DNA from: Burkholderiales bacterium
GTDB lineage: Bacteria > Pseudomonadota > Gammaproteobacteria > Burkholderiales > Burkholderiaceae_C
DNA: 48,587 nucleotides
Assembly (NCBI GenBank): GCA_028864885.1
Contig: JAGWLR010000017.1
Span: forward strand, 1 to 48,587
Direction of reading: 5' to 3'
The first letter of the stretch is position 1. Each line of letters starts with the position of its first letter. Below are positions 31,990-46,294 of this stretch, in pieces. The position numbers and the translations under genes are program-made. Under the pieces are notes generated by a model. The model saw only the letters and a list, made by a program, of their open reading frames with translations, searched no databases and was not told the DNA's origin.

Positions 31990-32463
31990 ATGCACCACCC
32001 ATCGCGCATTCACTTGCTCTTCATGGCCGCTGGTATGGTCTGCACCCTGGCAGCTCGCGCTGCCGTGCCAGCCGGCACCCAATTGCCCTTGAAGGCCCTC
32101 GACCGAGAGTATTTCAAGATCGGTGAATCCAAGAAGGTCAAGTTTTTGGTTGCTGCCCCGGATGACCCCAATGACACCTCCGTGGTTGCCAAACTGGCAG
32201 GCTGCACCGTCGAGGGAGACGCCGCGTACAACCCCAAAACGGCTCGCCTTTACCTCAAGCATCCCACGCTGAACTGCCCATCTGATGCGGCTGCGGGTTC
32301 TTCTCTGCCGCCGGAAACCGACCTGACTGGACAACTGAGTGACTCTGGCGTTGACGGCATCCGCCTCGATTGCGGCCAAGACAAGGAATGCACCGTAGGT
32401 CATCTGAAGAAGGACGCAGATGCGGCTTTCACCCTGACTGATGGCTTTGGCGGGGCCGATTAA
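31990..32463 (+). CDS. Small secreted protein of unknown function
   Basis: The 157-residue protein has a signal peptide (about residues 1-24, ending ARA before AVPAG). The mature part has four cysteines in LAGCTVEGD, LNCPSD and LDCGQDKECTVG, well placed for two disulfides. The segment GCTVEGDAAYNPKTARLYLK has a faint resemblance to the GDltaeRvyv beta hairpin of VirB10/TraB proteins, not enough to assign it. A GGAGG site lies before the ATG. Its stop codon overlaps the stop of the convergent SulP gene, so little or no spacer separates the two 3' ends. Confidence 0.7.
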   Translation: MHHPSRIHLLFMAAGMVCTLAARAAVPAGTQLPLKALDREYFKIGESKKVKFLVAAPDDPNDTSVVAKLAGCTVEGDAAYNPKTARLYLKHPTLNCPSDAAAGSSLPPETDLTGQLSDSGVDGIRLDCGQDKECTVGHLKKDADAAFTLTDGFGGAD

Positions 32464-34100
32464 GCAAACTGCTTGCGCGCCAGTGCCACGGCTTCGTCGA
32501 TGCTCAACACCGTGAGCACGGCACCGGGCAAGTGCGCGCGCTGCAACACCGCGTAGGACTTGCTTTTCAGGCGCGCGATGACGAGATACTGCCCGGATCG
32601 GATCAGTTGCAAACTGAGCTCGCGTAGAGCCTCGATGCATGAGCCGTCCAGATCCGGCGATTCCTCCAAGCTGAGCACGACTGCCTTGACTTGGGGCTGT
32701 TGACTGAGTCGACGCTGCAACAGGGTCATCAGTCGTTCGGCGTTCCAGAAGAACATGGGGGCCTCAGGACGCACAACCAGAATGTCGGGCTCGGGGTGTA
32801 CGTCTGGGTAAAGGTCTTGTTCGACGAAATCGTGACTGTCTTTCAAGCGCCCCAGGACTGCCAGCCGCACATCGGCCAGCTCTTTCAAGGTCAGAAACAG
32901 GCTCAACCCAATCGACACCAACAGGCCATCCAGCACCCCTAGCACCAGCACGGCCAACACGGCCGCAGCCACCACCAGGCGATCGCGCTGCCAAACAAAA
33001 TACGGGGCCAGCACCTCCCAGCGCAGCGTATGGCTGACCGCCCAGACCACCACGGCCGCCAAAACCGGCACTGGCGTTTGCGCCACCCAAGGCAAGAGCA
33101 GCCAGATCATGACGGCCACGGTGGCCGCCGCCACCAGCCCTGCCCATCGGGAGCGGGCGCCCGCCGCCTCGTTGGCCACGCTGGCTGAATACCCTGCCCC
33201 GACCGGCATGCCCTGAAACACGCTGCTGAGCAGGTTGGCAGCTCCCAATGCCAGCAGATCGCGATCTGGGGCCACAGGATCTCCATGCCGCAGCGCCAGA
33301 CTGCGGATCGACGTGTACGACTCGGCATAGAGGATCAGCACCATGGCAAAGGCCAGTTCCCCCAGACGCAACCACTGCGCCCAAGCCAGCTGTGGCACCC
33401 CCGGTGAAATCTGATCAAAGGCAATCAATCCAATGGGATGCACGCCATGTTGCGCAAGCCCCCAGCCCATCTGGGCAGCGATGCCCGCCCCCATGACGAT
33501 CAAGCCGGCAGGCAGCCAACGCATGCGGCGCCCCAATCCAAACAAGGCGACCAGAGCGAGCAGACCGACCAGCAGGCTGGGCAGATGCCAGCTAGAGCGG
33601 GCAGCCACCAATTGCCGAATCACAGACAACGGATCGCTGCCCACGGTGGACACGGCCAGCCAACTGGGCAACTGCCGGATGATGATGACCAGGGCCAAGC
33701 CAAAGGTGTAGCCGCGCACCACGGGTTTGGCCACGAAAGCCGAAGCCACGCCCAGTCGTGCCAGCGCCCCGAGCACGAACATCGCGCCAGTTAAGCCGAC
33801 CAGCCCCGCCGATAGGCTCATGCGCCAATCGAGGTGCCCCAAAGACAGGCTCCCCACAGCTGCAGCGAGCAGAGCTGCCGACGACGAGGTAGCCGACACA
33901 ACCGCAAATCGACTCGCCCCCAACAACCCATAGGCCAGCAGGCCCGCAAACAGGGCAACCAGCCCCGCCTGTGGCGGCATGTTGCCGATGCCCGCATAAG
34001 CCACCGCCTCCGGCAACAACAAACCGGCCAGTGACAACCCAGCCAACACGTCACGGCCCGTGGGGCGCTCCAATGCCCAGTCTGCTGGCCACTTCATCAA
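32460..34100 (-). CDS. SulP-family anion transporter with STAS domain
   Basis: The 546-residue transporter has about twelve membrane segments. The opening LAGLSLAGLLLPEAVAYAGIGNMPPQAGL is the SulP hallmark, and a cytoplasmic STAS domain lies at about 430-546 (VVLSLEESPDLDGSCIEAL). Family members carry sulfate, bicarbonate, molybdate or organic anions, and sequence alone does not choose. It overlaps the exonuclease gene by 4 bp and is the last of three coupled genes. Confidence 0.9.
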   Translation of the reverse strand: MMKWPADWALERPTGRDVLAGLSLAGLLLPEAVAYAGIGNMPPQAGLVALFAGLLAYGLLGASRFAVVSATSSSAALLAAAVGSLSLGHLDWRMSLSAGLVGLTGAMFVLGALARLGVASAFVAKPVVRGYTFGLALVIIIRQLPSWLAVSTVGSDPLSVIRQLVAARSSWHLPSLLVGLLALVALFGLGRRMRWLPAGLIVMGAGIAAQMGWGLAQHGVHPIGLIAFDQISPGVPQLAWAQWLRLGELAFAMVLILYAESYTSIRSLALRHGDPVAPDRDLLALGAANLLSSVFQGMPVGAGYSASVANEAAGARSRWAGLVAAATVAVMIWLLLPWVAQTPVPVLAAVVVWAVSHTLRWEVLAPYFVWQRDRLVVAAAVLAVLVLGVLDGLLVSIGLSLFLTLKELADVRLAVLGRLKDSHDFVEQDLYPDVHPEPDILVVRPEAPMFFWNAERLMTLLQRRLSQQPQVKAVVLSLEESPDLDGSCIEALRELSLQLIRSGQYLVIARLKSKSYAVLQRAHLPGAVLTVLSIDEAVALARKQFA

Positions 34101-35041: not shown

Positions 35042-35646
35042 GCTTCACCTTGCATCAAAGAGTCGAGCGTGAGTTCGTAAGCCGGCGCGAAGTGCTCCAG
35101 AAAGTACGCCACTTCTGGCGTCAGGTTCTGGTCAATCTTGACCTTGACCTGCAAAGCCGCCTGTTCGAACTCGCGGTTGCCGTAGCGCAACTCGGCACGG
35201 CACTTGAGCCAGGCCGCCAGGCGGTCGGCCTGCTTCACCAGCAAGGCCTCGTCCTTGGGCCATTCGTGGTGATCCAACAGGGGGCTCAACGCTGGCCGCA
35301 AGGCATCGGGCAGCAAGCGGCTCATTTCCTGGCTGACTTCGTCTTCCAGATTCGCGGTGGCGTGGCGCATGGCTGGCGAATATTTAACCGGGGTGGGCAG
35401 ATCGCCTGTGATGGCCTCGGTGGCGTCATGAAACAAGGCCCGGGTGGCCACGGCGTTGGGGTCGATCGGCTTGCCCAGCACATCCCGCCGGATCACGGCC
35501 AAGGCATGGGCGAGCACGGCCACCTCCCAACTGTGCTGGGCCACGTCTTCTTCAACGGCGTTGCGCATCAATCCCCAGCGCTTGATGAAGCGCAGGCGCG
35601 ACAGATGGGCGTAAAACGGGCTATGCGAGGCGAAACGATCAGACAT
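35038..35646 (-). CDS. yfbR: HD-domain 5'-deoxynucleotidase, YfbR-like
   Basis: The 202-residue HD-superfamily phosphohydrolase has the metal-site residues in AQHSWEVAVLAH, the HD pair in LFHDATEAITGDLPTPVKY, and a further conserved LDHHEW. YfbR hydrolyses deoxyribonucleoside 5'-monophosphates. It leads the three-gene operon with the exonuclease downstream. Its ATG overlaps the palindromic CATG that also provides an unused ATG on the opposite strand. Confidence 0.9.
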   Translation of the reverse strand: MSDRFASHSPFYAHLSRLRFIKRWGLMRNAVEEDVAQHSWEVAVLAHALAVIRRDVLGKPIDPNAVATRALFHDATEAITGDLPTPVKYSPAMRHATANLEDEVSQEMSRLLPDALRPALSPLLDHHEWPKDEALLVKQADRLAAWLKCRAELRYGNREFEQAALQVKVKIDQNLTPEVAYFLEHFAPAYELTLDSLMQGEA

Positions 35647-35722
35647 GGAGAAAATCAGAACAGTGCTTTATCGTGCAGGGGTTGTTATCTTCGCGCAAAT
35701 CGCACCCCGATCGCGCCCCCGC

Positions 35723-36106
35723 ATGATGTTTGAAGACCTGGGCAAATACCTGTTGATCGCCTTCTTTGTGTTTTTCGGCGTTCTGGCCTGGCGCGCCTGG
35801 CAAATCCGGCAGGCCAGCCCCGAATGGCCCTCGGTACAGGGTGAAATGGTGTCCAGCCGCGTGTTTGCTCAGAATCAAACAGGTGGCGAACAGGGCGTGT
35901 CGACGCATGAATGGTTCACTGAAGTGCATTACCGTTACACCGTGCAAGGGCAAACGTACGAGGGAAACCGGCTCAGGGCTTTTGGGCGACACCACTTTTT
36001 CAAAGAACAAGCGGAAGCCGAACTGGCCCCCTTTCCTGTGGGGCAAGCCGTACGGGTGTACTACAACCCCGCCAAACCGTCCGAGAGCGTTCTGATTCCG
36101 GGCTGA
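35723..36106 (+). CDS. DUF3592 membrane protein
   Basis: The 127-residue protein has one N-terminal membrane helix (LGKYLLIAFFVFFGVLAWRAW) followed by a beta-rich domain with the DUF3592 pattern WPSVQGEMVSSRV, HYRYTVQGQTYEGNR, and VRVYYNPAKPSESVL. I take one of the tandem ATGs at 35723/35726 because the longer frame from 35645 overlaps the yfbR start. No ribosome site is obvious. Function is unknown. Confidence 0.72.
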   Translation: MMFEDLGKYLLIAFFVFFGVLAWRAWQIRQASPEWPSVQGEMVSSRVFAQNQTGGEQGVSTHEWFTEVHYRYTVQGQTYEGNRLRAFGRHHFFKEQAEAELAPFPVGQAVRVYYNPAKPSESVLIPG

Positions 36107-36126: not shown

Positions 36127-36155
36127 TTGCATACCCTTAGGGGTATATGTATACT
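36127..36155 (+). promoter_or_regulatory. RND-operon promoter with embedded CsoR/CstR-type operator
   Basis: TTGCAT (36127-36132) and TATACT (36150-36155) are spaced by exactly 17 nt, a good sigma-70 promoter. The inverted repeat ATACCC-TTAG-GGGTAT (36131-36146) fills the spacer, so a bound repressor would block polymerase. The half-sites are the same as those 5 kb downstream before sqr. CsoR-family repressors typically bind such TACC/GGTA inverted repeats. Confidence 0.75.
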
Positions 36156-36185: not shown

Positions 36186-37256
36186 ATGACACACAAACTG
36201 GCGGCGATCACGATCGCGACACTGTTGAGTCAGGGGGCGTGGGCGCAAGGCAACGCAGCCCAGACGGGTGCCATCTCGGTGCCCACCGTGACCTTGGCTG
36301 CGGCTCAGTCTGGCGCCAGCACGCAGTTCGATGGCGTGATTGAGGCAGTGCGCCAAAGTACAGTCGCAGCGCAGGTACCGGGCAACATCGTCGAGCGACT
36401 GGTCAAGGCTGGTGATGCGGTCAAGGCGGGTCAGGTCATGATGCGCATCGACAGTCGAGACACCCAAGCCGCGCTGGAAGTTCGCCAGGCCGAAGTGGCC
36501 CAGGCTCAGGCCCAACTCGAAAACGCTCGCCAGCAATGGGAGCGCAGCCAGGCGCTGCGAGCTCAAGGCTTTATCAGTGCCGCCGCACTGGATTCTGCCC
36601 AGGCGCAATGGAAGGCGGCCCAAGCCACTGTGGCGGCAGCCCAAGCCGGTCGCAATCAAGCTGCCCTGGCCAAGGGCTACACCAACATCGTGGCCCCGTT
36701 CGATGGCCTGGTGCTGTCCACCATGGCCGAAGTCGGTGATCTGGCTGGCCCGGGTCGCCCGGTCCTGACGCTCTACTCTCCGCAGGCGATGCGCGCCGTG
36801 GTGCAGGTTCCGGCATCGCAATCTGACGCCCTGAAATCTGCCAAGCAAGTGAGCGTCGAAACGGCTCAAGGTTGGGTGTTGCCGGCCAAGGTCGTCTCGC
36901 TGCCCGGCACTGATCCGGTGTCGCAAACCGTGGAGTGGCGCCTTGACCTCCCCAAAGAGGTCAAAGGCATGCTGCCAGGTCAGACAGTTCGCGTTCGCTG
37001 GACTGGCGTCGATGCGGCCACTGGGGCCACCACCTCGCAACCCATCACGGTGCCCGCCTCGGCCATCTTGCGGCGTGGCGAGTTGAGCGCTGTCTATGTG
37101 GTGCGCGATGGTCGGTTCGTGCTGCAATCGGTGCGCACCGGCCCGGCATCGGGTAGCGCCCCTGTGACGGTGTGGTCAGGCATCCAAGCGGGCGACCGCA
37201 TTGCTGCTGATGCGGTGAGGGCGGGTCTGGCTGGCGCCACCCCGCAAGCCCAATGA
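36186..37256 (+). CDS. RND efflux periplasmic adaptor (membrane fusion protein)
   Basis: The 356-residue HlyD-type adaptor has a signal peptide (MTHKLAAITIATLLSQGAWAQ). A barrel-sandwich domain follows (VAAQVPGNIVERLVKAGDAVKAGQ), then an Ala/Gln-rich coiled-coil hairpin at about 95-160, the returning lipoyl half (IVAPFDGLVLSTMAEVGD) and beta-barrel domains. I choose the ATG at 36186 over that at 36147, which lies at the -10. It overlaps the pump gene by 4 bp. No outer-membrane factor gene is present, so a TolC-type channel must be supplied from elsewhere. Confidence 0.92.
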   Translation: MTHKLAAITIATLLSQGAWAQGNAAQTGAISVPTVTLAAAQSGASTQFDGVIEAVRQSTVAAQVPGNIVERLVKAGDAVKAGQVMMRIDSRDTQAALEVRQAEVAQAQAQLENARQQWERSQALRAQGFISAAALDSAQAQWKAAQATVAAAQAGRNQAALAKGYTNIVAPFDGLVLSTMAEVGDLAGPGRPVLTLYSPQAMRAVVQVPASQSDALKSAKQVSVETAQGWVLPAKVVSLPGTDPVSQTVEWRLDLPKEVKGMLPGQTVRVRWTGVDAATGATTSQPITVPASAILRRGELSAVYVVRDGRFVLQSVRTGPASGSAPVTVWSGIQAGDRIAADAVRAGLAGATPQAQ

Positions 37257-40200
37257 AAGCGCTGGGTGTATCCGGGCGCCTGGCCCGAGCTTTCCAGGAC
37301 AACGCCCTGACCCCTCTGCTGGCCATCGTGGCCATGCTGCTGGGTTTGTTTGCCGTGCTCGTCACCCCGCGTGAAGAAGAGCCGCAAATCAATGTGACCA
37401 TGGCCAACGTGCTGATCCCCTTCCCTGGGGCCTCGAGCACGGATGTGCAAAACATGATCGCCAAGCCTGCCGAGCAGGTGCTGTCTCAGATCGCAGACAT
37501 TGAACACACCTACTCGGTGGCCCGCCCAGGCATGGCCGTGTTGACGGTGCAATTCAAGGTGGGCGTCCCCCGTACCGACGCGCTGGTGCGCCTGTATGAC
37601 GTACTCAATGCCAACCAGGACTGGCTGCCGCGCAACCTGGGTGCCCTGCCCCCCATCGTCAAGCCCAAGGGCATTGACGACGTGCCGGTGTTGGGTGTGA
37701 CTCTGTGGTCGAAGAACAGCCAGTCTGGCCTGGAGCTGGAGCGCGTGGCTCGCAGCCTGGAGATGGAACTCAAGCGGGTGCCCGGCACACGCGAGGTTCA
37801 AACCATCGGTGGCCCCGGACAAGCCGTACAGGTGCTGCTGGACCCCACCCGCTTGCGTGAACGCGGCATCGACGTTCAATCCCTGATCCAGATCGTGGGG
37901 GCGGCCAACCTGGGCATGCCCTCTGGATCGGTGCTCAATACCGATGGCCAAGGCCACCAGATGCTGGCCGTAGAAACCGGCGAATTCTTGCGCAGTGCTG
38001 ACGATGTCGGTCAACTGGTCGTGGGCGTGAACCAGGGCAAGCCGGTTTACCTGCGTGAGGTGGCCCGCATCGAAGCGGGCGCACAGCAAGCCCAACGCCA
38101 TGTCTGGTTCACTCAGGGGGCGGCTGATGCCAACCCGACCGCACCGGCTGGCGAAACCTATCCTGCGGTGACCTTGACGGTCACCAAAAAGCCGGGTCAG
38201 AACGCGGTGGACGTCGCCAGCGCGGCCCGCAACCGCCTGGAAGAGCTGCGCAACACCGTGCTGCCGGCTGATGTCGAGATGACCGTCACCCGTGATTACG
38301 GCGTGACGGCTGCCGAGAAGGCCAACAAGTTGATCCAGAAGCTGGCCTTTGCCACCGGTTCGGTGATCTTACTGGTGGGCTTTGCGCTGGGCCGCCGTGA
38401 GGCCGTGATTGTCGGCTCGGCCGTGATCCTGACCTTGACAGCCACCCTGTTTGCCTCGTGGGCCTGGGGCTTCACGCTCAACCGCGTGTCGCTGTTTGCC
38501 TTGATCTTCTCGATCGGCATCCTGGTCGATGACGCGATCGTGGTGGTGGAAAACATCCACCGTCACCAGCAATTGCATCCGGGCATGCCGCTGCGCGAGA
38601 TCATCCCCAGCGCGGTGGACGAAGTGGGCGGCCCCACGATCCTGGCTACCTTGACGGTGATTGCGGCCCTGCTGCCGATGGCCTTCGTGTCAGGCCTGAT
38701 GGGCCCCTACATGAGCCCGATCCCCATCAACTCCAGCCTGGGCATGGCCATCTCCTTGGCGATTGCCTTCACGGTGACGCCCTGGTTGGCCCTCAAACTG
38801 ATGAAGCCCCACCACGCCATGGTGGATGATCTGGAGCCCGGTGGCAGCAGCCTGGCCACCCGCTTGCAAGGCTTCTTCAACCGCGTGCTGATGCCGCTGC
38901 TGGTTCACCGTCGCAAGCGTTGGATCATGGGCCTGAGCATCGTGGCGGCCATGATGATTTCGGTTGGCCTGGCCACCGTGCCCTCGTCATGGGTGGGCGT
39001 GGTCATGAAGATGCTGCCCTTTGACAACAAGAGCGAGTTCCAGGTCGTGGTGGACATGCCTGCGGGTACGCCACTGGAAGACACGGAAGCCGCCTTGCAT
39101 GACATGGGTGCCTATCTGGCCAAGCAACCTGAGGTGCAGAACATCCAGGGCTATGCCGGCACCGCTTCCCCCATCACCTTCAATGGCCTGGTGCGCCAAT
39201 ACTACCTGCGCGCCGACGCCGACCAAGGCGACCTGCAGGTGAACCTGGTTGACAAGCACCACCGCCATGACAAGAGCCATGCCATCGCGCAAAGGCTGCG
39301 CCCCGGACTGGAAGCCATCGCCGCCAAGCACGGTGCGCGCATCAAGGTGGTGGAGGTGCCCCCTGGGCCGCCCGTGATGTCACCCCTGGTGGCCGAGGTG
39401 TACGGCCCCGATGAAGCCGGCCGCCAACAACTGGCCAGCAACATCGCCAAGGCTTTCCATGATTCGCCAGACATCGTCGCCATCGACACCACGCTGAAAG
39501 AAGACGCACCGCGCACCTTCTTGCACGTGCGTCGTCAACGCGCCGAATCGCTGGGAATCCCTGTGGCGGCCGTGGCGCAAACCGTGCAAGCCGCCTTGTC
39601 GGGCGCTGACGCTGCTTACCTGCACGATGAGCAGTCCAAGATCCCAGTCCCCGTTCGCCTGCAACTGCCGCGCGAATCACAGATCGGCCTGGATGCCCTG
39701 CTGGCCCTGCCCCTGCGCGCGGCAAACGGCAAACTGGTGCCTTTGTCCGAACTGGTATCGGTTGAAAAAGGCGTGATCGACAAGCCGCTGTACACCAAGG
39801 ATCTGTTGCCGGTGAGCTATGTGTTTGGCGACATGGCCGGCAAGCTTGACTCGCCCTTGTATGGCCTGTTTGAGATCCGCAAGCAGCTGGCCCAGGCCAC
39901 CCTGCCCGGCACGGGCAAGCTGGAAGAGTTCTGGATCAAGCAACCCAGCGATCCCTATCGGGCCTACTCGATCAAGTGGGACGGCGAATGGCAAATCACC
40001 TATGAAACCTTCCGCGACATGGGCGCTGCTTACGGCGTGGGCCTGATCCTGATCTACCTGCTGGTGGTGGCTCAGTTCAAGTCCTACCGCACGCCGCTGA
40101 TCATCATGGCGCCGATCCCACTGACCATCATCGGCGTCATGCCTGGGCACGCCCTGCTGGGGGCCCAGTTCACGGCCACCTCGATGATCGGGATGATTGC

Positions 40201-40519
40201 TCTGGCCGGCATCATCGTGCGCAACTCCATCCTGCTGGTGGACTTCATTGAGCTACAGGTGGCCCAAGGCGTGGAGTTCAAACAGGCGGTGGTTCAGTCG
40301 GCCGCCGTGCGAGCCCAGCCCATTGCCCTGACCGGCATTGCCGCGATGGTGGGGGCCTTTTTCATCCTGGACGACCCGATCTTCAACGGCCTGGCCGTGT
40401 CCCTGATCTTTGGCATTGCCGTGTCGACTTTGTTGACGCTGGTTGTCATCCCCGTTCTGTACTACGCGGCTTACCGCCGCCATCACGATGCCCAGGCATC
40501 GATTGCTTCGAAGGAGTAA
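37253..40519 (+). CDS. RND-family inner-membrane efflux pump
   Basis: The 1088-residue pump has twelve membrane segments and two large periplasmic loops. The proton-relay pair Asp426-Asp427 is in TM4 (GILVDDAIVVVENI). In TM10 the position of AcrB Lys940 is Arg990 (GIIVRNSILLVDF). It lacks the methionine-rich metal site of CusA, so a heavy-metal exporter is less likely, and the substrate is unknown. It is coupled to the adaptor upstream, and 5 bp downstream is a DUF2892 gene, then a CsoR-family regulator and sqr. That context ties it to reactive-sulfur or thiol stress. Confidence 0.93.
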   Translation: MKALGVSGRLARAFQDNALTPLLAIVAMLLGLFAVLVTPREEEPQINVTMANVLIPFPGASSTDVQNMIAKPAEQVLSQIADIEHTYSVARPGMAVLTVQFKVGVPRTDALVRLYDVLNANQDWLPRNLGALPPIVKPKGIDDVPVLGVTLWSKNSQSGLELERVARSLEMELKRVPGTREVQTIGGPGQAVQVLLDPTRLRERGIDVQSLIQIVGAANLGMPSGSVLNTDGQGHQMLAVETGEFLRSADDVGQLVVGVNQGKPVYLREVARIEAGAQQAQRHVWFTQGAADANPTAPAGETYPAVTLTVTKKPGQNAVDVASAARNRLEELRNTVLPADVEMTVTRDYGVTAAEKANKLIQKLAFATGSVILLVGFALGRREAVIVGSAVILTLTATLFASWAWGFTLNRVSLFALIFSIGILVDDAIVVVENIHRHQQLHPGMPLREIIPSAVDEVGGPTILATLTVIAALLPMAFVSGLMGPYMSPIPINSSLGMAISLAIAFTVTPWLALKLMKPHHAMVDDLEPGGSSLATRLQGFFNRVLMPLLVHRRKRWIMGLSIVAAMMISVGLATVPSSWVGVVMKMLPFDNKSEFQVVVDMPAGTPLEDTEAALHDMGAYLAKQPEVQNIQGYAGTASPITFNGLVRQYYLRADADQGDLQVNLVDKHHRHDKSHAIAQRLRPGLEAIAAKHGARIKVVEVPPGPPVMSPLVAEVYGPDEAGRQQLASNIAKAFHDSPDIVAIDTTLKEDAPRTFLHVRRQRAESLGIPVAAVAQTVQAALSGADAAYLHDEQSKIPVPVRLQLPRESQIGLDALLALPLRAANGKLVPLSELVSVEKGVIDKPLYTKDLLPVSYVFGDMAGKLDSPLYGLFEIRKQLAQATLPGTGKLEEFWIKQPSDPYRAYSIKWDGEWQITYETFRDMGAAYGVGLILIYLLVVAQFKSYRTPLIIMAPIPLTIIGVMPGHALLGAQFTATSMIGMIALAGIIVRNSILLVDFIELQVAQGVEFKQAVVQSAAVRAQPIALTGIAAMVGAFFILDDPIFNGLAVSLIFGIAVSTLLTLVVIPVLYYAAYRRHHDAQASIASKE

Positions 40520-40524
40520 ACACC

Positions 40525-40746
40525 ATGACCACCGAACGCTACATCCGCATCATCGCCGGCTTGTTCATCATGATTTCGCTGGCGCTGGGCGTCGAAGGCT
40601 CACCGCTGTTCGTATCCAAATGGGCCCTGGCCTTCACGGCCTTCGTCGGCGCCAACTTGTTCCAATTTGGCTTCACCAATGTCTGCCCCTTGGCCTTTTT
40701 CTTGCACAAGTTGGGCGTGAAAGACGCACCCAGCTGCGCTCGTTGA
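40525..40746 (+). CDS. DUF2892 (YgaP-like) small membrane protein
   Basis: The 73-residue protein has two membrane helices (YIRIIAGLFIMISLALG and ALAFTAFVGANLFQFGFT) and the conserved CP motif in NVCPLAFFLHKLG, plus a C-terminal Cys. The family corresponds to the membrane part of YgaP, whose rhodanese domain handles sulfane sulfur. A second member is encoded in the right arm at 42626-42820. A GAAGGAG site precedes the ATG, overlapping the end of the pump gene. Confidence 0.85.
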   Translation: MTTERYIRIIAGLFIMISLALGVEGSPLFVSKWALAFTAFVGANLFQFGFTNVCPLAFFLHKLGVKDAPSCAR

Positions 40747-40824: not shown

Positions 40825-41160
40825 ATGAAGTCCTCACCAACGCTCCCGAACAATCCGGACGACTGCAAGATGGCCGCCCTTGACGACGAAAAAAGCCGCA
40901 CCGATATCCTGAATCGACTCAAGCGGGCCGAAGGCCAGTTGCGCGGCATTCAGCGCATGATCGAAGAAGGTGACGCCTGCCTGGACATCGCCACGCAGAT
41001 GGCAGCCGTGCGCAAAGCGCTCGACAGCACCTATGTGCGCATGACCATGTGCTTCATGGAACAACAACTGCAAGCCCGGGCCCAAGCCGACGCCAGCAGC
41101 GTGCAGCCGGTAGACGATCTGATGCACCAGATGGAAACCTTGCTGGGCAAGATCCGCTGA
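40825..41160 (+). CDS. CsoR/RcnR-family regulator with non-canonical cysteines
   Basis: The 111-residue all-helical repressor (DUF156) has the conserved RLKRAEGQLRGIQRMIEEGDACLDIATQMAAVRKAL core. In CsoR and CstR the second sensing Cys lies 29 residues after the first, and CsoR also has His at +25. Here the first Cys is Cys52, position +25 is Phe77 and +29 is Gln81. Another Cys, Cys76, lies at +24. A further Cys14 lies near the N-terminus. The copper site is therefore absent and the persulfide pair is shifted. It probably binds the ATACCC-N4-GGGTAT operators at 36131 and 41275. Thiol sensing is inference. Confidence 0.88.
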   Translation: MKSSPTLPNNPDDCKMAALDDEKSRTDILNRLKRAEGQLRGIQRMIEEGDACLDIATQMAAVRKALDSTYVRMTMCFMEQQLQARAQADASSVQPVDDLMHQMETLLGKIR

Positions 41161-41274: not shown

Positions 41275-41290
41275 ATACCCATACGGGTAT
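41275..41290 (+). promoter_or_regulatory. CsoR/CstR-type operator upstream of sqr
   Basis: The inverted repeat ATACCC-ATAC-GGGTAT (16 bp) has the same half-sites and the same 4-bp spacer as the site in the RND promoter at 36131-36146. An extra GGGTA follows directly. It ends 17 bp before the sqr ATG, so a bound repressor would cover the start region. Confidence 0.75.
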
Positions 41291-41307: not shown

Positions 41308-42582
41308 ATGGCTGAGATTGTGATTCTGGGAGCCGGTATCGGCGGGTTGCCGATGGCGTTTGAGATGAAGGAAAACGCCCGATCGCAGGATCGAATCACC
41401 GTCATCTCGAACACGCCCACCTTCCACTTCGTTCCATCCAACCCGTGGGTGGCAGTGGACTGGCGTGATCGCGATGAGATCGAGCTGCCGATCGCCCCAA
41501 TTCTGGAAAAGAAGGGGGTCAACTTCATCGCCGTGGGGGCCAAACGGGTCCACCCCGAACGCAACGTCGTCGAACTGACCGACGGTCGCGAAATCAAATA
41601 CGACTTTCTGGTCATCGCCACCGGTCCCAAACTGGCCTTTGACGAGATCGAAGGTTTCGGCCCCGCAGGGCATACTCAATCGGTCTGCCACGTCGACCAC
41701 GCCGAGGAAGCCAAAGCCGCGTGGATGGAATTCGTCAAGGATCCAGGCCCCATCGTGGTGGGCGCAGTTCAAGGCGCCTCCTGCTTCGGCCCGGCTTATG
41801 AGTTCGCCATGATTATGGAGACCGATCTGCGCAAGCGCAAGATCCGCGACAAGGTACCGATGACCTTCGTGACCTCGGAGCCCTACATCGGCCACCTCGG
41901 GCTCAACGGCGTGGGTGACTCAAAGGGATTGATGGAATCGATCTTCCGCGACAAATCCATCCGCTGGATCTGCAACGCCAAAGTCACCAAGGTTGAAAAG
42001 GGCTCGATGTACGTCACCGAGCACGACGACGAGGGCAAGCCCAAGAAGGACCACGTCCTGCCCTTCAAGTATTCCATGATGCTGCCCGCGTTCAAGGGTG
42101 TGGACGCCGTGTTTGGCATCGAAGGGCTGGTCAACCCGCGTGGCTTCGTGCTGATCGACGAGCACCAACGCAACCCGAAGTACCCCAACATTTTCTCGGT
42201 GGGCGTTTGTGTGGCCATTGCGCCCACCGAGCCCACGCCCATCCCCACCGGGGTACCGAAAACCGGCTACATGATCGAATCGATGGTCACCGCCACCGCG
42301 CACAACATCCGCGCCATTCTGGACGGCAAAGAGCCCACAGAAAAGGCCACCTGGAACGCCGTGTGCCTGGCCGACTTTGGCGACCGCGGGGCGGCCTTCG
42401 TGGCGCTGCCTCAGATCCCTCCACGCAATGTGAATTGGTTTGGCGAAGGCTACTGGGTGCACTTGGCCAAGATCGCCTTTGAAAAGTACTTCCTGCGCAA
42501 GATGAAGAAGGGCACTTCAGAGCCCATCTACGAGAAGATCGTGATGCAGGCCATGGGCATCATGAAGCTCAAGAACAAGTAA
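41308..42582 (+). CDS. sqr: Sulfide:quinone oxidoreductase
   Basis: The 424-residue flavoprotein oxidises sulfide to sulfane sulfur and passes electrons to quinone at the membrane. The N-terminal FAD motif is ILGAGIGGLPMAFEM. The cysteine triad Cys127 (SVCHVDHA), Cys159 (GASCFGPAYEF) and Cys353 (NAVCLADFGDRG) matches the spacing of the Acidithiobacillus enzyme (128/160/356). The FAD-binding block near 295 contains IFSVGVCVAI. AAAGGAGAGTGAC before the ATG is a strong ribosome site. It has its own operator-controlled promoter and ends at a terminator shared with the right arm. Confidence 0.93.
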   Translation: MAEIVILGAGIGGLPMAFEMKENARSQDRITVISNTPTFHFVPSNPWVAVDWRDRDEIELPIAPILEKKGVNFIAVGAKRVHPERNVVELTDGREIKYDFLVIATGPKLAFDEIEGFGPAGHTQSVCHVDHAEEAKAAWMEFVKDPGPIVVGAVQGASCFGPAYEFAMIMETDLRKRKIRDKVPMTFVTSEPYIGHLGLNGVGDSKGLMESIFRDKSIRWICNAKVTKVEKGSMYVTEHDDEGKPKKDHVLPFKYSMMLPAFKGVDAVFGIEGLVNPRGFVLIDEHQRNPKYPNIFSVGVCVAIAPTEPTPIPTGVPKTGYMIESMVTATAHNIRAILDGKEPTEKATWNAVCLADFGDRGAAFVALPQIPPRNVNWFGEGYWVHLAKIAFEKYFLRKMKKGTSEPIYEKIVMQAMGIMKLKNK

Positions 42583-42625: not shown

Positions 42626-42820
42626 TTATTCCTGCTTCATCTTGCAGGTGCTGATACCAAAAGGCAGGTACGCCGGACACCAGCCCGACAGCCCCGTCAT
42701 CAAGGGCACCACGCCCAACCACCCCCAGACGCCAACCGTGCCGGTTGCAGCCAAGGCAATCAAGACCGCCCCCACCGTGATGCGAGCAATGCGATCGATT
42801 CCGCCAACGTTCACTTTCAT
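42626..42820 (-). CDS. DUF2892 (YgaP-like) small membrane protein, second copy
   Basis: The 64-residue protein has two membrane helices and the CP motif in LSGWCPAYLPFGISTC. I choose the ATG at 42820 because GAAGGAG lies upstream of it. It is the last gene of the leftward BigR operon and 20 bp after the SulP stop. Its pairing with a similar gene at 40525 links both arms of the regulon. Confidence 0.82.
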   Translation of the reverse strand: MKVNVGGIDRIARITVGAVLIALAATGTVGVWGWLGVVPLMTGLSGWCPAYLPFGISTCKMKQE

Positions 42821-42840
42821 GCTTTTCTCCTTCAAAAAAA

Positions 42841-44613
42841 TCAAGCCAGAGCATCCCAGGCATGCTGAGCGCTGAGAAAAATGCGCCCCTCAAACAGAGC
42901 ATCCATGCGGCTGTGTTTGAGTCGATCCATCAATGGCCCCTTCACTTCGGCCAGGTAGAGGCAACGCCCCTGATCTGACAGATTGCGATCCAGCTCAAGC
43001 AAAGTCTGCATCGCCGAGTGATCGATGTGATTGACCGCCGACAACAAGAGCACGATCCGTTCAATGCGCTCACGGCCATGCACCAACTCGCACAGCCGCA
43101 ACTCCACCCTTTGGATGTTGGTGAAATCCAGGCTTTCGTCAACCCGCACCATCAGCACCCCGTTCAGTTGCTCGACGCGGTGCCGGTTCACGTTGCGAAA
43201 GTGGTGGGTACCGGGCACCCGCCCTACTTCGGCCATGTGCGGCTGGCTGTGGCGCCAGATGAGGGTGCCAAGTGACCAGGCAATGCCAATCAGAATGCCA
43301 GTTTCAAACCCGACCAGCAACACACCGAGGGCTGTGGCCACGAAAGCCCAGGCATCGGCGCGATCGTAAACCCAAGCCTGCCGTAGCGGCCGAAAATCAA
43401 TCAACCCGACCACCGCCATCACGATCACTGCGGCCAGCGCCGACTTCGGCAGATACGACAGCCACGGTAAAAACAAGGCCATCATGATGCCCAGAATCAG
43501 CGCGGTGATGACGCCCGCCAAGGGGCTGCGGGCGCCGGCCGCATCGTTGACCACCGACCTGGACAAGCCCCCGGTCACCGCCATGCCGCCCAGCACGGTG
43601 CTACCCAGGTTGGCCACCCCCAGGCCGATCAACTCGCGGTCGGCATCAACACGTAGCCCCTGTCGCAAAGCGAAGTTCTGGGCCACCGACATGCTGCTCA
43701 CAAAGTTCACCAGGGCCACCAGCAGCACCGGCATAGCCAAGGGTTGCCACACGGCGGGCAGCGATTCACCCAACTGGAGCAGTGAATCCCGAGCCGCAGC
43801 GACGTTCAGCTTCACCTCGCCCACCAAACTGATCGGCCCAGCGCCAGTTGACAGCAGGTGTTGGGCGATCCATGCGGCTGACAACAACACCCCCAGGGGC
43901 CACAAACGCACGCCGATCTGAACCCGCGCCGCAGACAAGCCCACGGCTCGGCCCACACGATTCAAGAGCTTGGGCCCAGCCCACAGCAAGGCCACCGACG
44001 CCAGGCCAACCTGGGCATTGCCATTGACGGCACCCGCAGGCCATGTGAGCACATGCTGCATCAACTGCTCAAGCATGTCAGGCAAGGTGGATCCGAGCGA
44101 CTTCCACCCCATCAACGAAGCCACTTGCCCCAGCATGATCAACAGCGCCGACGCCACCGTGAAGCCCTGCACCACCGGCCGGCTCAGCAACTGCGACAGA
44201 AAACCCAGGCGCAGCCCCCCCATCAGCATCAGCAGCAGGCCTGAGCCCAACGCCAATGCTGCCGACAAGACACCATACGAAATGCCCCCCGGTACCGCCA
44301 GCGGCGAGAGCGCTTGAAACACCATCAGCGAGGTGATGGCGCCGGGCCCCACCGACAGCGCCCCGCTGGTGCCAAACGCGGCATACCCCAGCAACGGCAG
44401 CAAGCTGGCCATCAGCCCGACCTGCGCAGGCAGGCCAGCCAACATCGCATAGGCCAGACTTTGGGGCACCAGCATGATCGCCACGACCACGCCGGCACTC
44501 AGGTCACCTGCCAGCCAATCCTGGCGCCAAGCCCTGACCCAGGGGGGTGGAAAACTCCACGGTGCCCCCGAGTTGAGAGGCTGCCGCCCTGCCCGCCGAG
44601 CGGCAGCAGTCAT
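42841..44613 (-). CDS. SulP-family transporter with STAS domain (BigR operon)
   Basis: The 590-residue transporter has the SulP signature LAGDLSAGVVVAIMLVPQSLAYAMLAGLPAQVGL and a C-terminal STAS domain (about 455-585, NHIDHSAMQTLLELDRNL). The ATG at 44613 overlaps the stop of the upstream sulfurtransferase by 4 bp; longer versions of the frame would run into that gene. BigR operons in other bacteria carry a TauE-type sulfite/sulfur exporter at this place. A SulP protein could do the same job. Substrate is not settled. Confidence 0.9.
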   Translation of the reverse strand: MTAAARRAGRQPLNSGAPWSFPPPWVRAWRQDWLAGDLSAGVVVAIMLVPQSLAYAMLAGLPAQVGLMASLLPLLGYAAFGTSGALSVGPGAITSLMVFQALSPLAVPGGISYGVLSAALALGSGLLLMLMGGLRLGFLSQLLSRPVVQGFTVASALLIMLGQVASLMGWKSLGSTLPDMLEQLMQHVLTWPAGAVNGNAQVGLASVALLWAGPKLLNRVGRAVGLSAARVQIGVRLWPLGVLLSAAWIAQHLLSTGAGPISLVGEVKLNVAAARDSLLQLGESLPAVWQPLAMPVLLVALVNFVSSMSVAQNFALRQGLRVDADRELIGLGVANLGSTVLGGMAVTGGLSRSVVNDAAGARSPLAGVITALILGIMMALFLPWLSYLPKSALAAVIVMAVVGLIDFRPLRQAWVYDRADAWAFVATALGVLLVGFETGILIGIAWSLGTLIWRHSQPHMAEVGRVPGTHHFRNVNRHRVEQLNGVLMVRVDESLDFTNIQRVELRLCELVHGRERIERIVLLLSAVNHIDHSAMQTLLELDRNLSDQGRCLYLAEVKGPLMDRLKHSRMDALFEGRIFLSAQHAWDALA

Positions 44614-44972
44614 GCAGGCCGCCCGACCTGACACCCCACTGCTTGAAACAGGGCATTGGCACGCCCACCGGATTTGCAGAAGGCCACGATCGGATGCGGC
44701 AGATCGGCACACAGCGCGTGGTAGCGGGTAACCTGTTCAGGCGAGATCATCAGGCTGGCCACTGGAAAGTGCACATACGACATGCCAGCAGCTTTGGCCG
44801 CCGCCTCGATCTGGGCACTGGTGGGCTGGCCCGGGCCACCCTCGCCATCTGGGCGATTGTTGATGATGCTGCGATAGCCCTGCGTGGCCAGCTTGGCCAC
44901 ATCTTCAACCGAAATCTGACCGCAAACAGCGAACTCAGGGCACAGGGGATTGATGGGGACGCTCAGCGACAT
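44610..44972 (-). CDS. DUF442 / TIGR01244-type sulfurtransferase-phosphatase domain protein
   Basis: The 120-residue stand-alone domain is the one fused to the N-terminus of Blh proteins in other bacteria. The active-site loop reads AFCKSGGRAN, with Cys99 and Arg104 (C-x4-R), intermediate between dual-specificity phosphatases and rhodaneses. An AAGGAAG site lies upstream of the ATG at 44972. With bigR upstream and SulP coupled downstream it probably handles sulfane sulfur. The enzymatic activity is inferred from the family. Confidence 0.88.
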   Translation of the reverse strand: MSLSVPINPLCPEFAVCGQISVEDVAKLATQGYRSIINNRPDGEGGPGQPTSAQIEAAAKAAGMSYVHFPVASLMISPEQVTRYHALCADLPHPIVAFCKSGGRANALFQAVGCQVGRPA

Positions 44973-44995
44973 GGCGCTTCCTTTCGTGGATGAAC

Positions 44996-45364
44996 TCAAC
45001 AAGCGCCGCCGGTCATGGCGGCACCACAGATACGGCTGTGCAACACCTCCATCACCGCCGCGGCATCTGCGCTGACCAGGCGGTAATAGATGTGCTTGCC
45101 CTCACGGCGAGTGTCGACCAGGCCCTCCTGCCTCAACACCCCCAATTGCTGTGACAAGGTCGGCTGGCGGATGCCAAGATCCCGCTCCAGCTCACTGACA
45201 CAGAACTCGCCCTGCGCCAGCCGGCACAGCAGCACCAGTCGATCCGTGTGCGCCAGCACCTTCAACAAGGCACACGCTTTTTGCGCTGAGGCCTGAAGGG
45301 CTTGCAGATCAGGCGCAGGCAAACCGACACGGTCACACGGCTCTTCAATGTCTGTCACTTTCAT
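44996..45364 (-). CDS. bigR: BigR/SqrR-type ArsR-family persulfide sensor
   Basis: The 122-residue winged-helix repressor has RQPTLSQQLGVLRQEGLV as its recognition helix region. Cys47 (LLCRLAQGE) and Cys113 (SRICGAAM) are 66 residues apart, the same as Cys42 and Cys108 of Xylella BigR. In that protein they form the disulfide or tetrasulfide that releases DNA. Two further Cys (Cys55, Cys122) are present. The start is either 45364 or the ATG three codons earlier at 45373; neither has a clear ribosome site, and leaderless translation is possible. It is divergent from the dioxygenase. Confidence 0.92.
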   Translation of the reverse strand: MKVTDIEEPCDRVGLPAPDLQALQASAQKACALLKVLAHTDRLVLLCRLAQGEFCVSELERDLGIRQPTLSQQLGVLRQEGLVDTRREGKHIYYRLVSADAAAVMEVLHSRICGAAMTGGAC

Positions 45365-45377
45365 GATAAACATTATG

Positions 45378-45400
45378 TTGACAGATATATTGTTTGTCAA
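45378..45400. promoter_or_regulatory. Candidate BigR operator in the divergent promoter region
   Basis: The inverted repeat TTGACA (45378-45383) and TGTCAA (45395-45400) flanks an A/T-rich 11-bp core. It lies in the 48-bp space between bigR and the dioxygenase gene. ArsR-family sensors bind A/T-rich inverted repeats in this position. TTGACA may also be a -35 for the plus strand. Confidence 0.55.
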
Positions 45401-45412
45401 TAAAGTGAAGTC

Positions 45413-46294
45413 ATGAAGACGACCACCCCACTGATCCAATCCTTCATCCAATCCTTCTTTGATGCCCAGACCGGCACCTACACCCACGTGGTGTACGACC
45501 ACGAAGGCGGGCACGCCGCAGTCATTGATCCCGTTCTGGATTTCGATGCCAAGAGTGGGCGCACTGGCCATGCACGTGCCGATGAGGTGATTGCCTTTGT
45601 TCGTCAACAGCAGTTGCACGTGGACTGGATTCTCGAAACCCATGCTCACGCCGATCACCTTTCAGCGGCCCCCTACATCCAGCAGGCCGTGGGCGGCCGC
45701 ATCGCCATTGGGGCTGCCATTCAGAAAGTGCAGACGGTGTTCAAGGGGCTGTTTCACCTCGAGCCTGAGTTCCCGACCGATGGCTCGCAGTTCGATCACC
45801 TCTTTGAAGATGACGAGGCTTTTTCCATTGGCGAGTTGCAAGCGGTGGCATGGCATGTGCCAGGCCACACTCCCGCTGACATGGCCTATGTGGTGGGCGA
45901 TGCGGTCTTTGTGGGCGACACCCTGTTCATGCCCGATGTGGGCAGTGCGCGCTGCGATTTCCCTGGGGGCAACGCACACCAGCTTTATCAATCGGTCCGC
46001 CGGATACTGGCCTTGCCTGACGCGACCCGCCTGTTTATGTGCCACGACTATCCGCCGAATGGCCGCGCCCCTGAGGCCATGTGCACCGTGGCTCAGCAAC
46101 GTGCGCACAACATCCACATGCACGACGGCATCACCGAAGCCGAGTTTGTGCAGATGAGGCAAACGCGCGATGCCACACTGGCCATGCCCAACCTGATCCT
46201 GCCTTCCGTGCAAGTGAACATTCGGGCGGGGCATCTACCTCCGGCAGAATCCGACGGTCGGCATTACCTCAAGCTGCCTGTCAACGTCTTCTAA
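45413..46294 (+). CDS. Persulfide dioxygenase (Blh/ETHE1-like metallo-beta-lactamase fold)
   Basis: The 293-residue enzyme oxidises glutathione persulfide to sulfite and glutathione. The iron-binding motif THAHADH holds His77, His79, Asp81 and His82, followed by HVPGHTPADMAYVVGDAVFVGDTLF and later MCHDYPPNGR. The 293 residues and the neighbours (BigR, DUF442) fit the Blh group rather than short ETHE1. A weak GTGAAG site precedes the ATG. It is cotranscribed with the OsmC gene 14 bp downstream. Confidence 0.92.
   Translation: MKTTTPLIQSFIQSFFDAQTGTYTHVVYDHEGGHAAVIDPVLDFDAKSGRTGHARADEVIAFVRQQQLHVDWILETHAHADHLSAAPYIQQAVGGRIAIGAAIQKVQTVFKGLFHLEPEFPTDGSQFDHLFEDDEAFSIGELQAVAWHVPGHTPADMAYVVGDAVFVGDTLFMPDVGSARCDFPGGNAHQLYQSVRRILALPDATRLFMCHDYPPNGRAPEAMCTVAQQRAHNIHMHDGITEAEFVQMRQTRDATLAMPNLILPSVQVNIRAGHLPPAESDGRHYLKLPVNVF

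Follow-up and report, generated by a model that had tools for sequence, protein, structure and literature searches.

In a 48,587-nucleotide stretch of DNA from a Burkholderiales bacterium (contig JAGWLR010000017.1 of assembly GCA_028864885.1; hereafter the window), the genes for an RND periplasmic adaptor, an RND pump and a DUF2892 protein stand directly ahead of genes for a CsoR-family regulator and a sulfide:quinone oxidoreductase (SQR, encoded by sqr), in the content and order that an original prediction made from this DNA had described. We found that the linkage of this pump to sulfide genes is repeated among its relatives and does not reflect a chance neighbourhood with sqr. Because the pump lies beside sqr, appears to share a common switch with it and travels with sulfide genes, its cargo is probably something that the detoxification of sulfide produces, not drugs or metals. 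We are confident that the role of the system lies in sulfide or sulfane-sulfur stress; its substrate is, on balance, probably a polar product of sulfide oxidation, and with moderate confidence we favor, as the best explanation of the whole, a sulfane-sulfur-induced RND efflux system that exports such a product.

We sampled the order evenly, taking 200 genomes with that of the window among them, and surveyed pump neighborhoods that extended 8 kb to either side where the contigs were long enough. The relatives in this order sample split into orthologues at 58-67% identity (65 loci in 64 other genomes) and a sister group at 39-43% (18 loci in 17 genomes). An additional set (genome_contigs) held the 80 closest named loci, which were chosen by similarity and share four pumps with the order sample. 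As controls we used 50 other RND loci, 10 from the window's own genome and 40 picked from full-length matches in eight orthologue-bearing genomes; two of these 40 (L224 and L225) overlap. Score thresholds were 30 bits for DUF2892, 150 for SQR, 40 for CsoR and 25 for ArsR. Contig ends left less than 15 kb at 8/65 orthologue, 4/18 sister, 27/80 genome_contigs, 4/10 own-genome control and 1/40 other-genome control loci. A DUF2892 gene was present at 60 of the 65 orthologue loci, an ArsR-family gene at 39, sqr at 16 and a CsoR gene at 3, whereas the 50 control loci yielded DUF2892 in none, ArsR in two and sqr in none. The 25-bit threshold also takes in distant ArsR proteins; at 40 bits or more, ArsR genes were counted at 29/65 orthologue, 8/18 sister and 0/50 control loci. 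Sister loci had DUF2892 in 13/18, ArsR in 8/18 and sqr in 2/18 cases, and the genome_contigs loci had DUF2892 in 71, CsoR in 29, sqr in 27 and ArsR in 22. These counts answer the question posed with the original prediction, namely whether homologues would mostly neighbor drug or metal genes instead of sqr, in favor of the sulfide association.

The arrangement of these genes tells the same story of repeated linkage. In 59 of the 65 order-sample loci, DUF2892 lay inside the pump operon (same strand, gaps of less than 300 bases). Within the operon, sqr took three positions: flanked by adaptor and pump, flanked by pump and DUF2892, or following DUF2892. The association thus seems to have arisen repeatedly. 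The order adaptor-SQR-pump-DUF2892 was seen at 8 of 65 order-sample loci. The ArsR genes were of two kinds in the alignment, one BigR-type with Cys at both sensor columns (17/26 order-sample and 6/14 genome_contigs rows) and the other with an LCDLVC-like motif. Thus the regulator varies from locus to locus, and the trio of adaptor, pump and DUF2892 is kept. We also observed a rhodanese-like protein near the pump at 17 of 142 pooled loci, and relatives of an OsmC-like protein (L036:11762-12208, identified by eye) at 8 of the 142.

The original prediction had stressed that no outer-membrane partner gene accompanies the unit. Indeed, none of the genome's 28 OEP-family matches lies on the window's contig, but this absence is ordinary for the group, since only 10 of 65 orthologue loci have an outer-membrane factor within 8 kb, as against 29/40 control RND loci of other genomes and 6/10 of the own genome. 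Pump loci of the sister group (L129-L143 and L209-L211, about 40% identity) had such a factor nearby in 16 of 18 cases.

The association also holds at the level of whole genomes. In 199 genomes (the window's excluded), 60 had an SQR match at an E value of 1e-60 or better, and the pump or its sister was present in 56 of these 60, compared with 25 of the 139 genomes without an SQR match; these counts are uncorrected for kinship among genomes. The presence of the pump or sister in 56 of 60 sampled sqr-bearing genomes suggests a physiological function in the detoxification of sulfide. At the phylum level, 155 of 398 genomes matched the pump at E 1e-200; roughly 42 of these reached at least 52% identity, and the others among the matches listed were at 39-44%.

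Among annotated plasmids, 52 records carried pump relatives, all below 60% identity and labeled only generically, as efflux RND transporter permease subunit. Of five neighborhoods examined, those of Vibrio HDW18, Pseudanabaena ABRG5-3, Paracoccus denitrificans PD1222 and Azospirillum argentinense had DUF2892 nearby; in the last three, rhodanese or sulfurtransferase genes and ArsR genes were near the pump as well, and the Paracoccus and Pseudanabaena plasmids additionally had genes for FAD/NAD(P)-binding oxidoreductases. On plasmid 1 of P. denitrificans PD1222 (L293), the pump sits in a compact sulfide island with an MBL hydrolase, two DUF2892 proteins, a YeeE/YedE transporter, a sulfurtransferase, an ArsR protein, cytochromes, the adaptor and an FAD/NAD(P)-binding oxidoreductase.

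The pump itself has an AcrB-like fold (fold comparison by VIA-align) with an ACR_tran domain, at about 22% identity to AcrB. Residues were aligned for pumps longer than 950 aa only. At the AcrB positions D407, D408, K940, R971 and T978, which we take to be the proton relay, the window's pump has D, D, R, R and T; four residues are identical and Lys940 is replaced by Arg throughout the pump group. In 14 of 17 sister pumps, position 408 is Ala. The residues that we take to form the Phe-rich deep binding pocket of AcrB (F136, F178, F610, F615, F617 and F628) are P, I, Q, T, S and Q, and the position of AcrB Y327 is Arg in all 155 aligned group members. As mostly small or polar side chains stand in for the phenylalanines and Arg is invariant at the Y327 position, hydrophobic substrates would fit poorly. 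The aligned part of the pump is free of cysteine in 55/62 order-sample and 62/76 genome_contigs pumps, compared with 6/55 control pumps. No CusA-like methionine site had been noticed in the pump, and our alignment agrees: M573, M623 and M672, presumably the CusA/CzcA methionine site together with Glu939, correspond to V, Q and a gap, and Glu939 to Arg. The HME model TIGR00914 of NCBIfam scored 224 bits, below its cut-off of 701, and no named NCBIfam RND permease family exceeded its cut-off (the best, RND_permease_2, reached 456.3 versus 1250).

The DUF2892 protein, which exceeds the PF11127 cut-off, resembles the transmembrane part of YgaP and has a cysteine near the end of its second helix. 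This Cys54 is invariant in 15 aligned members and aligns with Cys159 of Escherichia coli YgaP. In the part of PMC4730233 available, Cys159 is placed near the reported thiocyanate site of YgaP, a membrane sulfurtransferase. The DUF2892 protein may act as a sulfur carrier or an anion gate for the pump.

Coordinates and strands of the unit are collected in Table 1. The unit had been described as overlapping, which is correct for adaptor and pump, whose reading frames share 4 bases, but not for DUF2892, which follows the pump after a 5-base gap. Of the two ATG candidates for the adaptor, at 36147 and 36186, we prefer the latter because the former touches the upstream operator. The cysteines in the QSVC, GASC and NAVC motifs of the window's SQR, which we take to be catalytic, all align to Cys in 3sz0. 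An upstream DUF3592 gene (35645-36106) was considered as a further member and rejected, as no homologue of at least 25 bits was found in five locus sets (213 loci).

Table 1. Operators and genes of the pump and sqr unit (positions in the window).
Feature	Position	Strand	Basis or remark
Operator ATACCC-TTAG-GGGTAT	36131..36146	+	Upstream of adaptor start; pattern search
RND periplasmic adaptor subunit (HlyD/MFP), cysteine-free	36186..37256	+	Pfam HlyD_3 and HlyD_D23; NCBIfam TIGR01730, 205 bits (cut-off 94.9)
RND permease, unnamed subfamily, AcrB fold, cysteine-free	37253..40519	+	
DUF2892 / YgaP-like transmembrane protein, invariant Cys54	40525..40746	+	PF11127, 45.3 bits (cut-off 25.3)
Putative CsoR-family repressor, Cys pair 24 residues apart	40825..41160	+	PF02583, 78 bits
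Operator ATACCC-ATAC-GGGTAT	41275..41290	+	Upstream of sqr; pattern search, also by inverted-repeat search
Type I sulfide:quinone oxidoreductase (sqr)	41308..42582	+	570 bits to solved 3sz0

The two operators, which the original prediction had not noted, are the only copies of ATACCC-N(2-8)-GGGTAT in the window, and none arose in 100 shuffles. In the whole genome, the pattern occurs at five places. Two more exact ATACCC-N4-GGGTAT sites are intergenic and lie outside the window (G000:C180:18982-18997 and G000:C83:2730-2745), one between cytochrome-oxidase-like genes and one beside a TetR-like gene as read by eye; these genes are possible further members of the regulon. Another copy falls inside a long open frame, read by eye as rne, and is likely a chance occurrence. 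We surveyed the operator at loci with an adaptor above 90 bits and enough upstream sequence, leaving uncounted two sites at L065, because too early a start had been assigned to the adaptor there. Allowing no more than one mismatch, we found a site near the adaptor at 13 of 25 CsoR-bearing genome_contigs loci, at 7 of 44 genome_contigs loci without a detected CsoR gene and at none of 60 order-sample orthologue loci.

The CsoR-family protein keeps the first Cys of the solved copper CsoR 4m1p, but the His of the Cys-His-Cys metal site is Phe and the distal Cys is Gln. An alignment of 31 members including the window's, restricted to matches above 60 bits, had the first Cys in 31/31 and a second Cys at +24 in 30/31. 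This differs from the cysteine pair of CstR, which we take to be 29 residues apart; a CstR-like working of the protein is possible. From its sequence, it would be a dithiol sensor of sulfane sulfur with a new cysteine spacing. The CsoR and ArsR families are both among the known families of persulfide sensors according to the part of PMC10509353 available.

Several observations weigh against our interpretation. The genomes are related, and Fisher p values therefore overstate their independence. An SQR match was absent from 24 of the 64 orthologue genomes. We considered flavocytochrome c (FCSD) as a stand-in for sqr there and found it unconvincing, as it occurred in 16 of these 24 genomes versus 11 of 24 pump-free, sqr-free genomes; these 24, out of 114, comprised 20 that were listed or stood first in order and the next 4 by number. 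With SQR absent and FCSD incomplete, some pump carriers are therefore without any sulfide oxidase in the SQR and FCSD searches. The plasmid relative in Shinella WSC3-e lies beside TetR and ABC-transporter genes, with no DUF2892, rhodanese or sulfurtransferase, or ArsR gene in the neighborhood. As for the operator, it was missing near the adaptor at the three loci of the order sample that have a CsoR-like gene and was not scored at 12 of the 25 CsoR-bearing genome_contigs loci, which is evidence against a universal operator rule, and a sigma-70 scan scored no promoter-like sequence at either operator of the window. Finally, the passages of PMC5358917 on Azospira suillum report that deletion of sqr or of its whole sulfide-linked pump operon left the rate of sulfide oxidation unchanged (0.49 vs 0.50 mM per hour for the operon), and the pump there is thus not needed for oxidation itself.

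We propose the following mechanism. As SQR oxidizes sulfide, persulfide or polysulfide would build up and would modify the conserved cysteine pair of the CsoR-family repressor. The modified repressor would then leave both operators, so that the adaptor-pump-DUF2892-CsoR operon and sqr would be switched on together; we infer this release and joint induction from the operators and the cysteines. Driven by the proton gradient, the cysteine-free pump and its adaptor would expel the product from the periplasm or the inner membrane, and the product would exit via an outer-membrane channel encoded elsewhere. The exported compound would be polar or anionic and would derive from sulfide oxidation, with polysulfide, a low-molecular-weight persulfide or thiosulfate as the most likely candidates. 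DUF2892, as the constant partner, would probably bind or hand over sulfur species, although we suggest only tentatively that it hands sulfur to the pump. We also consider it possible, if rather doubtful, that adaptor, pump and DUF2892 form a dedicated whole-envelope exporter of sulfane sulfur, in which the DUF2892 cysteine would pass SQR-made polysulfide or persulfide sulfur to the cysteine-free pump. If true, this would supply a missing step that puts zero-valent sulfur outside sulfide-oxidizing bacteria, and a CsoR-family protein with a novel distance between its cysteines would do the sensing.

Other substrates have to be weighed against this proposal. The AcrB-like fold would suit a broad hydrophobic efflux pump that has come under sulfide control and clears by-products such as S8, organic polysulfanes or sulfide-modified quinones or lipids from the membrane; RND pumps draw on both membrane and periplasm for their substrates, and the quinone pool is where SQR works. 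With the aromatic pocket of AcrB lost and an Arg invariant, we consider this rather unlikely. Export of metal-sulfide complexes, or of soft metals mobilized by the encounter of sulfide with metal ions, is also unlikely. The CsoR and ArsR families do contain metal sensors. Metal-sulfide export by sulfide-induced efflux pumps was also suggested by the authors of the A. suillum study (PMC5358917, in the passages available). However, neither the CusA methionine site nor Glu939 is kept, the His and distal Cys of copper CsoR have been replaced, no metal-resistance gene was seen among the 28 most frequent neighbor clusters (read by eye), and the actual partners are sqr, ArsR, DUF2892 and, at some loci, a rhodanese-like gene. 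The site residues of pump and regulator speak against a metal pump and a metal-sensing CsoR, both of which we rejected.

An exporter for thiocyanate or for cyanide detoxification, with DUF2892 binding thiocyanate as proposed for the membrane domain of YgaP and the pump carrying it onward, could draw on the alignment of Cys54 with YgaP Cys159 near the reported site (PMC4730233, in the part available). The partner at the genome level is sqr, with no search made for cyanide genes, and we regard such an exporter as improbable. Least credible is an ordinary drug pump that happens to neighbor sqr in this genome: it fits the merely general name carried by the plasmid relatives, but it is already contradicted by the counts of linkage and co-occurrence against matched controls, along with the shared operators. 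Sulfide-linked export of a polar product remains our preferred explanation. RND pumps have mainly been studied as exporters of drugs and metals, and our findings warn against labeling these genes as multidrug resistance; they also give DUF2892 a constant partner and make the export of zero-valent sulfur a question that one deletion can test.

A second sulfur unit adjoins the pump and sqr unit at 42635-46294 of the window. On the minus strand it comprises DUF2892 (42635-42820), a SulP permease, a BLH-type sulfurtransferase and a BigR-like ArsR protein, and on the plus strand a Blh-like persulfide dioxygenase; the interval that separates bigR from blh contains an imperfect inverted repeat (45371-45407). 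Another SulP permease-like protein, identified by eye, is encoded upstream on the minus strand, at 32460-34100.

In the open-licence literature, covered mostly at the level of titles and abstracts, only PMC5358917 and PMC12423496 bear on the function of this pump unit; the parts available of PMC8399692, PMC8269239, PMC10509353 and PMC7315123 do not mention one. In A. suillum PS, the operon Dsui_3440-3443 encodes a protein of unknown function, a cation/multidrug efflux pump, SQR and an RND adaptor; it is strongly expressed with sulfide and was the one operon that Bar-seq suggested (PMC5358917, in the passages available). As described there, it resembles the window's unit in pump, adaptor, SQR and sulfide link; a CsoR gene, present in the window, is unmentioned in those passages. 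A separate DUF2892 gene of A. suillum rose about tenfold there (PMC5358917), and Dsui_3440 may itself encode a DUF2892 protein. A 2025 survey places RND pumps among the neighbors of sulfane-sulfur ArsR regulators (PMC12423496, section 2.1). Like our proposal, it places RND pumps, in general terms, under the control of regulators that respond to persulfide; that section gives it one sentence, without the subfamily, the DUF2892 link, the CsoR version, controls or pocket analysis. The linkage of pump and sulfide has therefore been partly glimpsed in print, and the claim of an undescribed system must be narrowed: relative to the parts of these papers available, the new elements are the subfamily and the controls used for it, the operator common to the pump operon and sqr, the spacing of the CsoR cysteines and the pocket.

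With AcrAB-TolC (HAE1), the window's unit shares the fold, the proton-relay residues, the adaptor-pump pair and an outer-membrane channel gene located elsewhere, but it differs in its low identity, the lost Phe pocket, the absence of cysteine and the DUF2892 and sulfur-type regulator genes nearby. The CstR (cst), FisR and BigR operons, of which we take the cst operon to be composed in this way, likewise join a sulfur-responsive regulator to sqr, a persulfide dioxygenase and an exporter. In the Acinetobacter FisR system, as described in the part of PMC7315123 available, the exporter is TauE. The window's unit differs from these operons in that its exporter is an RND pump and its CsoR-family protein has a different cysteine spacing.

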